From: Kordia periserrulae
GTDB taxonomy: Bacteria > Bacteroidota > Bacteroidia > Flavobacteriales > Flavobacteriaceae
Assembly (NCBI RefSeq): GCF_003054265.1
Contig: NZ_QBKT01000004.1
Span: 310,001 to 374,000 of the forward strand
Reading direction: 5' to 3'
DNA: 64,000 nt
The first letter of the stretch is position 1; each line of letters opens with the position of its first letter. The notes under the pieces were generated by a model, which saw only the letters and a list, made by a program, of their open reading frames with translations, was not told where the DNA came from and made no database searches. Below, piece by piece: positions 39,454 through 42,740 of this stretch. Position numbers and translations under genes: made by a program.

Positions 39454-41850
39454 GTGATTAAGATAGAAAGAAATAAAATAGCAAAGCCAAAATTCTTTTT
39501 CTCCAAAGAATACGAGCAACTACAGCAGGAAATCAACGAATTTTACAATCTGCATAAAAATTCGCGCGCACAGCGAACATTTAATGAAGGCTATATTCCA
39601 AGTGAAATTTCATATGAGTTAGCAGAATTACAACACCACAAATGTGCTTTATGTGAATCTACTTTACGAAGAGGAAAACCAGGCTATGAAAGCTATTTGC
39701 ACCGTTTTCGCCCGATGAATTATGCGCAAGGTTTTGATAGTAAGGAGATTGCAGAAGATTACTATTGGTGGTTGACCTACGAATGGGAGAATTTATATTT
39801 GGTCTGCCACAGTTGTCAGCGTTTTAAGTCGAATGTATTTCCTGTCAATGGCAAACGCGCGCCTTTAAAAACATTACACAGCGAACTTTCAAAAAAAGAA
39901 AATGCCTTTTTAATTGATCCTTGCTACGAAGATCCCAGCCAGTTTTTTGATTTTGACTTAGAAAAGTTTGAAATCATTCCTAAAAAGATAGAATCCTATC
40001 CTAACTACCAGATGATTAGCGACGAGTTTTCAGCTCAAATTGAAGCCAATATTCAACGTGCAAAAGCAACCATACATGTTTTAGGGTTGAATCGTACCGA
40101 TTTGATTGATGAGCGAACGTATATCGTTAATGAAATTAGACAACAAGCAGAAAGTTTACGAAAAGGCGACTACAACATACAAAACATTGCTGAAGACTGG
40201 AATGCTGTTTTATTAGAAACTTCTACCAAAAACCATATTGCATTTCGAAACGCACTTATCAAGGATATTTTAAAAGACCAAAAACTTTATAAAATTATTT
40301 CTGATTATAGCAATCCGAAAGATTCTTACTTTACTCAATATCCACCGCAACAACAACAACAACAACAACAACAACAACAACAACAACAAATACCGCCAAT
40401 TCCTGATGCACAGGAAAATATAAAAGGTGGCGATGTTTTTGAATCCATGTCATTTCCGCTGGAAGAAACTTCGGAAGGCTTGTCCAGAGATAAAACGAAA
40501 AAACCTGACACTAAGAAGGCTATTTTTCAAAAAAAGGACAGCGAATATTACGCTAGCATTTTAAAAAATGTCTATCTCGATACGATTGAATTGCGAAATT
40601 TTAAATGCTTTTCCGATTTAAAACTCCAATTGCCAAGTTATGCCGACGATACAAGCGTAGAACCTTGGTTGGTATTTTTAGGTGAAAATGGTGTAGGAAA
40701 AAGTTCCGTACTCAAAGCAATTGCGATTGCGTTGATGGGACAAGAATATTTGGACGTACTAGGAATCACGGTGCAAGATGTATTGAAATATGGCAAACAA
40801 ACCGGACATATCAAGGTTTTTGGGAAAGATCATGACGAAGTGTATAGCGTTACGTTTGACAGAAAAACAAATAAAATTACCGCAAATATTCAGCAACCAC
40901 CAGCGTTTATCATTGGTTATGGTTCTACGCGTTTGCTTCCGATTGGGAATTTACAACCCGAAAAAGATCATCCGAGTTATTTAAAGGTGAAAAACTTATT
41001 TGATGCTTCTGTTTCGTTATCCAATGCGAAAGATTGGTTTTTAGAAAGCGACCTTAAAACGTTCAATCAAGTATCAAAAACCTTGAAGAATCTTTTGCTG
41101 TTGCACGATTTGGATTCTATCAAAAGAAGTCCCAAAAAAGGTGAAATTTACATCAAATACCATCATTCGGGTGACAATATTAACATTGAGCATTTAAGCG
41201 ATGGTTACAAATCTATTTTTGCGGTGGCGATAGACATGATTTATACGCTTTCGCAAGAAAATATCGTGTATGAACTCGCAGAAGGTATTGTATTGATTGA
41301 TGAAATCGGCACACATTTACATCCGCGCTGGAAAATGGAAATTATTGAACGTATGCGTAATACCTTCCCGAAAATTCAATTTATCATTACTACGCATGAA
41401 CCTCTTTGTTTGCGTGGTTTAAAGCAAAATGAAGTCGTGGTGTTGAAACGTGACAGTGAAAATGCCATCATCGCGATAAGCGATTTACCAGATCCAAGTA
41501 CATTGCGAATTGACCAATTATTGACTTCTGAATATTTTGGATTGAACAGTACGATGGATTCTAAAACGGAGAAGGAATTTGAGCGTTATTACGAATTGCT
41601 TGCCATCGATGAAATTGACAGAACCGAAGCACAAATCAAAGAAATAAAAGCCTTGCAAGAAGTGCTTCCTCAAAAGAAACGTTTGGGAGACGATGCGCGT
41701 GAAGACTTGATGTATCATGCGATTGACGAGTTATTAGCGAAGAAAATGAAGAAGAAAAAACTCAAAATTGTAGACGATGATATTAAAGAAAAAGCTGTTT
41801 TAAAAGTACAAGACATCTGGAAAAATATTTCCGCAAAAAATAAATTATGA
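39454..41850 (+). CDS. HNH domain fused to a PtuA-like AAA ATPase
   Basis: A 798-residue fusion starting with GTG. Residues about 60-145 are an HNH nuclease of the PtuB/TIGR02646 kind: KCALCES, HRFRP, WENLYLVCHSC. A linker with 14 consecutive glutamines (residues 299-312) leads to an ATPase with Walker A GENGVGKSS, the LSDGYKS signature, Walker B GIVLIDEIGTHLHP and TTHEPL. The end (RIDQLLTSEYFGLNST) resembles PtuA of the Septu system. An HNH fused on the ATPase is unusual. It overlaps the next gene by ATGA. Likely anti-phage. Confidence 0.82.
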   Translation: MIKIERNKIAKPKFFFSKEYEQLQQEINEFYNLHKNSRAQRTFNEGYIPSEISYELAELQHHKCALCESTLRRGKPGYESYLHRFRPMNYAQGFDSKEIAEDYYWWLTYEWENLYLVCHSCQRFKSNVFPVNGKRAPLKTLHSELSKKENAFLIDPCYEDPSQFFDFDLEKFEIIPKKIESYPNYQMISDEFSAQIEANIQRAKATIHVLGLNRTDLIDERTYIVNEIRQQAESLRKGDYNIQNIAEDWNAVLLETSTKNHIAFRNALIKDILKDQKLYKIISDYSNPKDSYFTQYPPQQQQQQQQQQQQQQIPPIPDAQENIKGGDVFESMSFPLEETSEGLSRDKTKKPDTKKAIFQKKDSEYYASILKNVYLDTIELRNFKCFSDLKLQLPSYADDTSVEPWLVFLGENGVGKSSVLKAIAIALMGQEYLDVLGITVQDVLKYGKQTGHIKVFGKDHDEVYSVTFDRKTNKITANIQQPPAFIIGYGSTRLLPIGNLQPEKDHPSYLKVKNLFDASVSLSNAKDWFLESDLKTFNQVSKTLKNLLLLHDLDSIKRSPKKGEIYIKYHHSGDNINIEHLSDGYKSIFAVAIDMIYTLSQENIVYELAEGIVLIDEIGTHLHPRWKMEIIERMRNTFPKIQFIITTHEPLCLRGLKQNEVVVLKRDSENAIIAISDLPDPSTLRIDQLLTSEYFGLNSTMDSKTEKEFERYYELLAIDEIDRTEAQIKEIKALQEVLPQKKRLGDDAREDLMYHAIDELLAKKMKKKKLKIVDDDIKEKAVLKVQDIWKNISAKNKL
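40348..40389 (+). repeat. (CAA)14 microsatellite inside the HNH-ATPase gene
   Basis: Fourteen uninterrupted CAA codons code for a polyglutamine linker between the HNH and ATPase domains. Slippage would change linker length without breaking the frame. Confidence 0.95.
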
Positions 41851-42740
41851 TTTTCATTGACAGAACTTCAGTTGACATTCCTGAGATTCTTGCAGATGGA
41901 AGTGAAAAACTGAAAAAAGAATTACAGGAAGCGATTGCGCATTATGCCGATCCAAATAAACGTAACAAAGCCTTTAAATTCAACGTGTACAGTCACGCAG
42001 ACGTCAAAGAAGCGTTGATTAAAATGGGCAAAGGAAAGTGTGCCTATTGCGAAAGCGATATTTTGGCGACATACGTAGGTGATATTGAGCATTTTCGCCC
42101 TAAAGGAGAAATTGAAGAATTAAAACCTACAGGCAACTCAAAACCAGGCTATTATTGGTTGGCGGCCGATTGGGATAATTTGTTGTTTTCGTGTCGAAAC
42201 TGCAATCAAAAATCCAAACAAGCGACAGCTACAGTAGCGGAAGCGAAAAGTATGGGGAAAATGAATCAGTTTCCTCTATTTGATGAAAATCAACGTGTTC
42301 GCTCGCATGAAGATGATATTGAAGAAGAAGAAAAAGTACGCTTATTGCTCAATCCGTGTAAGGAAAATCCTGAAGAATATTTTAAATATGATATCAATTC
42401 TGGTGTGATAAAACCTAAAAAGCGAAAAGAATTTTTAAAACAACGCGCCTTATCCTCTATCAAAGTGTTTGCCTTGCAACGTGTGCCATTGGTGATGGAA
42501 CGAGAGAAAAAAGCCATCTTAATCAGTGCGCAAATGCAACGTGTAGAAGAAGCATTCATCAATTACAACGATTTTATAAATGACCCAGAACGCGCAGAAA
42601 AATTTGGAAAAGTCTTGCAACGAGAAATGGAAACCTTGCAAAGTTTTCTCGATCCAAAAGAAGAATATTTAGGCTTAGCCCGACAAATGATTGGAAAATT
42701 TATGAAAAAGAATTTTCAAGTGGATATTACGGCGGCGTAG
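41847..42740 (+). CDS. PtuB-like HNH nuclease
   Basis: A 297-residue protein of the TIGR02646 HNH type. The core is complete: KCAYCES, the acidic-His pair in DIEHFRPK, the Asn in WDNL and a second zinc pair in SCRNCN. The rest is helical and charged. Start ATG overlaps the stop of the ATPase gene by four bases (ATGA), so translation is coupled. In Septu the ATPase PtuA and HNH PtuB act together; here the ATPase brings a second HNH of its own. No reverse transcriptase is near, so a retron is not indicated. Confidence 0.82.
   Translation: MIFIDRTSVDIPEILADGSEKLKKELQEAIAHYADPNKRNKAFKFNVYSHADVKEALIKMGKGKCAYCESDILATYVGDIEHFRPKGEIEELKPTGNSKPGYYWLAADWDNLLFSCRNCNQKSKQATATVAEAKSMGKMNQFPLFDENQRVRSHEDDIEEEEKVRLLLNPCKENPEEYFKYDINSGVIKPKKRKEFLKQRALSSIKVFALQRVPLVMEREKKAILISAQMQRVEEAFINYNDFINDPERAEKFGKVLQREMETLQSFLDPKEEYLGLARQMIGKFMKKNFQVDITAA

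Follow-up and report, generated by a model that had tools for sequence, protein, structure and literature searches.

A Septu-type module of Kordia with a PtuB-like region fused to PtuA and loss of the catalytic dyad residues in the fused copy

Septu defence systems combine the ATPase PtuA with the HNH nuclease PtuB, and in Septu type I, as in Ec-B88, the ATPase gene is followed by the HNH gene. According to the accessible passages of PMC13096335, the immunity conferred by Septu Ec-B88 is lost on mutation of PtuB H75 or N91 or of PtuA K43 or D316, and the system is said to cleave tRNA-Tyr. In the available portion of PMC11555353, PtuAB of Retron-Eco7 is reported to lead to loss of tRNA-Tyr, and Septu PtuAB is also described as DNA-degrading; the available part of PMC11980606 cites, for PtuA, a horseshoe made up of a trimer of dimers. 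Here, we describe a module of this type in Kordia periserrulae, found in a stretch of 64,000 nucleotides (contig NZ_QBKT01000004.1, positions 310,001 to 374,000 of the forward strand; hereafter the window), in which a PtuB-like region is fused to the N-terminus of PtuA and a separate PtuB is encoded immediately downstream. Our preferred reading, to which we assign a probability of about 0.6, is that this module represents a Septu variant whose fused paralogue of PtuB has a tendency to turn into a structural or regulatory pseudo-nuclease, with cutting left to the free PtuB.

Architecture of the module and its relation to Septu and retron systems

The fusion gene (39454..41850, + strand) has a GTG start and encodes 798 amino acids, comprising a PtuB-like region, a linker, and an ABC-type ATPase, and its end overlaps by ATGA the ATG-initiated gene (41847..42740, + strand) for a predicted HNH nuclease, PtuB, of 297 amino acids. 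Both open reading frames (ORFs) thus agree with the original prediction of an HNH domain, a glutamine linker, and a full ATPase in one protein, overlapping a complete HNH protein. The proposed likeness to Septu is also borne out, as residues 1-796 of the fusion protein match the PADLOC PtuA1 model PDLC00292 almost end to end (E 1.7e-217) and the downstream protein matches the PtuB1 model PDLC00319 (E 2.3e-107).

The PtuA-type ATPase part (residues 366-798; 40549..41847, + strand) carries a Walker A motif GENGVGKS (residues 410-417; 40681-40704), a signature LSDG (residues 581-584; 41194-41205), a Walker B DE (residues 616-617; 41299-41304), and a switch histidine, His648 (41395-41397), and thus has the motifs of a PtuA-family ATPase. 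Its closest relatives in the PDB are retron and Septu PtuA chains (first 9kjx_B, E 1.2e-20); the fusion protein matches Pfam AAA_21 (E 4.5e-19) and AAA_15, and scores 141.1 bits against the NCBIfam PtuA model of retron Ec78, NF041760, below its threshold of 500 bits. The N-terminal PtuB-like region (residues 1-265; 39454..40248, + strand) contains four zinc cysteines (residues 64, 67, 118, and 121) and Asn113. Residues 28-258 match the NCBIfam PtuB model NF041761 (E 2.5e-13; 50.4 bits, with a cut-off of 150), and the fused HNH region reaches 31.1 bits against TIGR02646, under the cut-off of 52.15. Since a profile comparison (hhalign) of 18 fused N-termini (residues 1-286 in the window protein) with 18 PtuB sequences extends over 247 columns (E 1.6e-56), nearly a whole PtuB-like protein, beyond the HNH core, appears to be fused to PtuA. 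The zinc cysteines, Asn113, and the ATPase motifs are invariant or nearly so in an alignment of 18 sequences, the exceptions being the glutamine run and Val414.

With regard to the free PtuB, the protein exceeds the TIGR02646 cut-off (57.6 bits), scores 18.1 bits against Pfam HNH (cut-off 21.4), and has retron I-A and Septu PtuB chains among its nearest solved structures. Its Glu81-His82 dyad, in the motif EHFRP (42087..42092, + strand), is intact and invariant in all 18 aligned PtuB sequences. This adjacent PtuB-family protein has the Glu-His, Asn, and zinc cysteines of an HNH nuclease, from which we infer that it is the nuclease of the pair. In one Kordia genome (G257; L042 11247-12266), PtuB has an insert with four extra cysteines (CxxC twice) soon after EHFRPKG, which is missing from the other 17 aligned PtuBs.

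The linker (residues 266-365; 40249..40548, + strand) is poorly conserved and includes a (CAA)14 tract (40348..40389, + strand) encoding 14 glutamines (residues 299-312), all by CAA. Among the 11 Kordia genomes this trinucleotide tract, although it lies within a coding gene, varies greatly in length: the longest glutamine run ranges from below 3 to 157, the maximum being that of G257 (L042 8430-11243; 156 CAA and 1 CAG), and the other ten genomes have runs of at most 21, two of them lacking any run of 3 or more.

By its predicted proteins the module is a Septu-type pair, resembling Septu type I and Ec-B88 in gene order, in the families matched by profile, and in the PtuB nuclease motif. It differs from these in the N-terminal PtuB-like region of PtuA with its degraded dyad and glutamine-rich linker, and its role in defence is a predicted one. 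Because the HNH is thus not confined to the separate protein, we regard the module as a Septu variant, although PADLOC models already admit this layout: at least 3 of 22 PtuA1 models (PDLC00292, PDLC00291, and PDLC00288, of 726-773 positions; best 25 of 134 PADLOC matches) also cover the N-terminal HNH region, although they are labelled PtuA1 and "AAA ATPase domain", a label that mentions neither the extra HNH nor a loss of catalytic residues. These numbers are in line with the expectation that most PtuA homologues lack an N-terminal HNH, while they contradict the implication that the architecture is new to databases; genes with this fusion can already be called as Septu today with the PADLOC 2023 models. 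According to the accessible passages of the PADLOC paper (PMC8565338), the form associated with retrons is Septu type II; a fused HNH is not mentioned in them. A literature search by title, abstract, and passages, with subscription papers beyond its reach, found no description of an HNH-PtuA fusion. The fusion itself being already inside databases, what is mainly new is that the fused copy has been disarmed repeatedly.

Both proteins have the retron I-A effectors PtuA and PtuB (Ec78/Eco7, Ec83) among their nearest solved structures. These effectors differ from the present module in that the matched retron PtuA chains cover the ATPase part only and in that no reverse transcriptase was recognised near the module. 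We rejected a retron assignment because no reverse transcriptase was recognised; the ten window neighbours of the pair had no PADLOC match at E 1e-5, and msr-msd was not searched for. A crude scan for reverse transcriptase motifs at 50 fused loci flagged five ORFs, one of which was a PtuB itself, and none was judged by eye to be a reverse transcriptase.

State of the catalytic dyad in the fused copy

In HNH nucleases, the acid of the catalytic dyad binds metal and the histidine acts as general base. With FRP as anchor, His83-Arg84 of the fused region (motif LHRFRP; 39700..39705, + strand) align with Glu81-His82 of PtuB, so that the acid is replaced by histidine and the catalytic histidine by arginine. 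In Kordia the fused pair reads His-Arg in six of the 11 species genomes and Asn-Arg, Gln-Arg, Ser-Arg, Glu-Arg, and Asn-His in one each; an acid-His dyad is found in none of the 11, and the free PtuB has Glu-His in all of them. The original prediction had placed a leucine at the glutamate position before a retained histidine, which was off by one: in Kordia aestuariivivens (G249) the fused motif is VNHFRP, of equal length, and four Kordia rows (Asn-Arg, Gln-Arg, Ser-Arg, and Glu-Arg) have no histidine at either position, which led us to reject that register. In either register, no Kordia row has an intact dyad. The Asn-His of G249 is the only case among the 11 of histidine at the second dyad position, the other ten having arginine. 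As the zinc cysteines, Asn113, and FRP are invariant across the 11 genomes, the Kordia fused copy is, to judge from these residues, a pseudo-nuclease that has kept its zinc site and Asn and has lost its dyad and, presumably, its activity. The earlier suggestion that one of the two HNHs may be non-catalytic thus agrees with the alignments.

To place this loss in a wider frame, we compiled 51 distinct fusion genes from several phyla (the search for homologous fusions proposed earlier), namely 11 from Kordia, 2 Kordia second copies, 6 from other genomes of the family, 1 from a phylum sample, and 31 from named genome contigs, a sample biased towards relatives of the query. The contigs L046 and L047 (Kordia aestuariivivens and K. 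jejudonensis) belong to genomes G249 and G251 and each was counted once, a locus with a split ORF (L062) was excluded, and upstream in-frame extensions were trimmed from the ORF of L074 (500 leading residues) and from the partner of L061 (540). A PtuB gene adjoins each of the 51 fusion genes, that of L078 being short (117 amino acids). The fused dyad is intact in 19 of the 51, with examples in Pedobacter and Flavobacterium, and lost in 32 (outside Kordia, in 21 of 40); the histidine is gone in 21 copies and only the acid in 11. By comparison, the Glu-His of the partner PtuB is intact in 51/51, and PtuB rows at plain-PtuA loci have Glu-His in 22/22 (from 21 loci; of the 25 plain-PtuA loci, L100, L101, L103, and L104 gave no HNH match and hence no row). 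Each zinc cysteine, the Asn, and the FRP arginine are present in all 51 fused copies, and an Asn after the last zinc cysteine is found in 22/51 fused copies vs. 50/51 partners. Two viral contigs beyond the 51 have one lost and one intact fused dyad, and both partners are intact.

When the dyad state was placed on an ATPase tree of the 51 (built without the trait columns), it required 9 changes, at least 6 of them on well-supported branches. While such a count is blind to the direction of change, loss would be the natural direction because the partner PtuBs are invariant. In the scan of named contigs, which yielded at least 59 loci, HNH and ATPase were found in one ORF at 33, split at 1 (L062), and with a plain ATPase at 25; at 33/33 of the one-ORF loci listed a PtuB ORF comes next. 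That PtuB adjoins fusions even with an intact fused dyad suggests that the free PtuB is not replaceable.

These residues bear on two further explanations. If both HNH regions cut, the fused one would do so through other residues or through a composite site formed with PtuB; the invariance of Asn and the zinc cysteines in the 51 fused copies and the full dyad of 19 of them would fit this. The arginine, glutamine, tyrosine, or threonine that stands in place of the catalytic histidine in 21/51 copies, together with the five different residues found at position 83 in 11 Kordia species, argues against it, and we consider cutting by both regions very unlikely. Alternatively, the fused pseudo-HNH could act as a sensor that binds, but does not cut, a target RNA or the nucleic acid of the invader, with the ATPase relaying this binding to the free PtuB. 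Zinc cysteines, Asn, and (in 10/11 Kordia) Arg are kept at the former active site, and inactive nuclease domains coupled to NTPases have been proposed as sensors in other defence systems, according to the accessible part of PMC12839542. The replacement residues differ among clades, which speaks against one common binding chemistry, and the present data fit ligand binding and protein docking alike; a sensor role is thus possible, albeit unlikely.

Origin, constraint, and possible role of the fused copy

In a tree of the HNH regions, 36 of 40 fused rows fall on one side together with 2 plain-locus PtuB rows (support 92, below the level marked as well supported). The tree was built by a quick method, has 36 weak branches out of 96, and includes 99 of 124 rows; L085 and L092 are among those excluded, as are the rows of 12 near-duplicate names in their respective roles. 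As fused and partner copies occupy separate lineages, they are probably an old paralogue pair, and a recent local duplication of ptuB was rejected on the same quick tree. L059 and the group L053/G255b/G045 lie nearer to free PtuBs and may represent other fusions.

The fused HNH might also be a decaying remnant without function, for which its lower conservation in Kordia relative to the ATPase (mean column entropy of 0.92 vs. 0.54 bits) could be adduced. Estimates of omega across the 11 Kordia are 0.088 for the fused N-terminal region (262 codons) and 0.066 for its HNH core (101 codons), 0.083 for the linker (66 gap-free codons), 0.057 for the ATPase (428 codons), 0.066 for PtuB (293 codons), and 0.047 for the PtuB HNH core (76 codons), values from a codon model that are rough, as tree lengths of 7.6-23 indicate synonymous sites probably near saturation. 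The omega of 0.066-0.088, the presence of the zinc cysteines in 51/51 fused copies, and the retention of the domain in 11/11 Kordia make a functionless remnant highly improbable; as far as these rough values can be trusted, the disarmed domain is under strong purifying selection and is not decaying.

Under the preferred reading of a Septu variant with a pseudo-nuclease, a PtuB paralogue would long ago have joined the N-terminus of PtuA while the free PtuB stayed, giving a "PtuB-prime-PtuA plus PtuB" layout. The product would be a toxin-effector pair of Septu type in which the free PtuB cuts and in which the ATPase would detect infection and control the cutting, as the parallel with Septu Ec-B88 suggests. 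A Septu PtuA oligomer has fewer PtuB than PtuA subunits. The fused region, present in each PtuA protomer and joined to the ATPase by the flexible glutamine-rich linker, would likely serve as a docking, dimerising, or substrate-positioning partner of the free PtuB.

Several points, besides the roughness of the omega values, weigh against this reading. An intact dyad in 19 of the 51 fused copies means that catalytic death is not required by the layout, and 11 of the 32 lost copies, in which the histidine is kept and only the acid is absent, may retain some activity. The ATPase tree on which the state changes were counted has seven long-branch rows. Corrected for phylogeny, dyad loss was not significantly associated with losing either the Asn that follows the fourth cysteine or the Lys that follows FRP (median p 0.25 each). 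Finally, docking by the fused region is itself something that we infer.

Distribution and genomic context

The module is present in 11/11 Kordia species genomes (full-length query, E 1e-15), and the ten other modules have 59-89% identity to that of the window (G257 in two pieces, 59 and 72%). Within approximately 19 kb, ten of the 11 genomes share one or both flanks, one flank having cytochrome-peroxidase-like and ATP-grasp genes and the other holA-like and glycosyltransferase genes, named from reading the sequences, with no family search. A gene with an eCIS_core domain (PF13699) lies beside the module in 10/11 Kordia, and this position accounts for 14 of the 38 matches to the domain among the 11 genomes; in G179 this neighbour is the only shared flank. 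In the window it is divergent from the fusion gene (38013..39344, - strand; PF13699 E 4.6e-25) and has a weak NlpC/P60-like end (PF00877 E 1.2e-4, 22.4 bits, cut-off 23), and a second eCIS_core protein is encoded at 36266-37498 (- strand). Among the eCIS_core proteins beside the module, the N-terminus is conserved and the C-terminal parts differ, being NlpC/P60-like or SH3_3-like, mostly just under Pfam cut-offs, or not recognised, and small genes often follow these genes. When the two window eCIS_core proteins were compared with PADLOC, one gave a single weak match (E 0.019).

Outside Kordia, a query of residues 1-379 (E 1e-10) found the fused gene in 6 of the family's 247 other genomes, a lower bound; in the same scan 9/249 genomes matched, including two Kordia and G129, where the match is a separate 288-amino-acid ORF. 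A scan of the phylum with an alignment as query, with scoring of the two top candidates of each genome, gave a full-length fused match in 3/395 genomes, including that of the window, and any match in 14/395, both lower bounds. While a single-protein query against named genome contigs found no relative, a later scan used an alignment as query. A fusion restricted to Kordia was rejected, as the layout also occurs in other Bacteroidota, Pseudomonadota, Actinomycetota, Bacillota, and a Gemmatimonadota metagenome-assembled genome, with phyla taken from the titles of the records. A phage-borne module was likewise rejected, as phage records gave five partial matches, all in the ATPase part. Of 19 loci in IMG/VR, the two with long matches were examined and both hold the fused gene. 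Since 32 plasmid records have a match, related genes occur on plasmids; none of these covers 80% of the query and 3/32 reach the N-terminal region.

The original prediction raised the question whether homologous fusions cluster in defence islands, and in part they do. At L016 and L019, the only other loci with scanned neighbours (9 proteins against PADLOC, 2 without match), restriction-modification or defence genes are close: a methyltransferase and HerA-like, HNH, and AbiEii-like genes at L016, and a type III restriction-modification pair and a NERD protein at L019. Around the window pair this is not seen, the ten neighbours having no PADLOC match. A larger operon is seen at L016, L017, and L018 (G110, G127, and G050), with genes for a DNA methyltransferase, a HerA-like ATPase, a NurA-resembling protein, HNH-PtuA, and PtuB; the NurA resemblance comes from reading the sequence and has no PADLOC match, L016 being the only one of the three scanned. 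Two of the 11 Kordia carry a second, diverged fused module (L043 7497-10807 and L044 6579-9880) with Glu-His intact in both HNHs; both lie at a shared, recN-coaBC-like site, where the window genome has another gene of 235 amino acids.

The Kordia module is thus a conserved, fixed genus locus, which is unusual for defence, and not a patchy defence island. The objection foreseen earlier, that the pair might sit in a conserved housekeeping locus, therefore holds for the conservation of the locus across the genus. The case for vertical descent is this presence together with the shared flanks; the trees do not prove it, given the incongruence with RecN: across 10/11 genomes (G179 left out), the RecN tree shares 3/7 splits with the ATPase, 4/7 with the fused N-terminus, and 2/7 with PtuB, and two ATPase splits absent from the RecN tree have support of 99 and 100.

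These observations raise the possibility that the Kordia module no longer serves phage defence, or not that alone, and has been domesticated to serve the core of the genus, in a function that might be connected with the neighbouring eCIS_core effector genes. Consistent with this are its presence in 11/11 Kordia vs. 6/247 other family genomes (obtained with different queries, the latter a lower bound), the flanking genes common to 10/11, the eCIS_core neighbour retained even in G179, where the outer flanks differ, and the patchiness of the second, diverged fused copy (2/11), which is as usual for defence genes. On the other hand, the linkage to eCIS_core may be one inherited event, since the flanks are shared, and G252 lacks that neighbour. 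An extracellular contractile injection system (eCIS) is not shown in Kordia, because the sheath family PF04984 gives weak, partial matches, over the cut-off in 9/11 Kordia and also in 3/14 control genomes. Moreover, both the ATPase and PtuB have the residues of Septu, and a whole genus can keep a defence gene. Domestication is therefore, in our view, quite unlikely. A more specific form, in which the fused HNH, itself not cutting, would act as a clamp or sensor, holding the free PtuB back and directing it via the length-variable poly-Gln linker, as part of a core programme (e.g., self-sacrifice coupled to effector release) and not of optional defence, is improbable and offered as speculation.

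With the preferred reading of a Septu variant with a pseudo-nuclease, fusing a pseudo-enzyme to an immune sensor or motor would be a way of regulating a dangerous nuclease. With the PtuB fold present twice per system, invariantly armed in one protein and repeatedly disarmed in the other, in several phyla, these modules provide a natural experiment on the non-cutting roles of PtuB, and the system offers clean mutants for testing, in Septu as in type I-A retrons, how the nuclease is held and triggered by the PtuA oligomer. For Kordia itself, the question arises of why a module of defence type came to be fixed throughout the genus.

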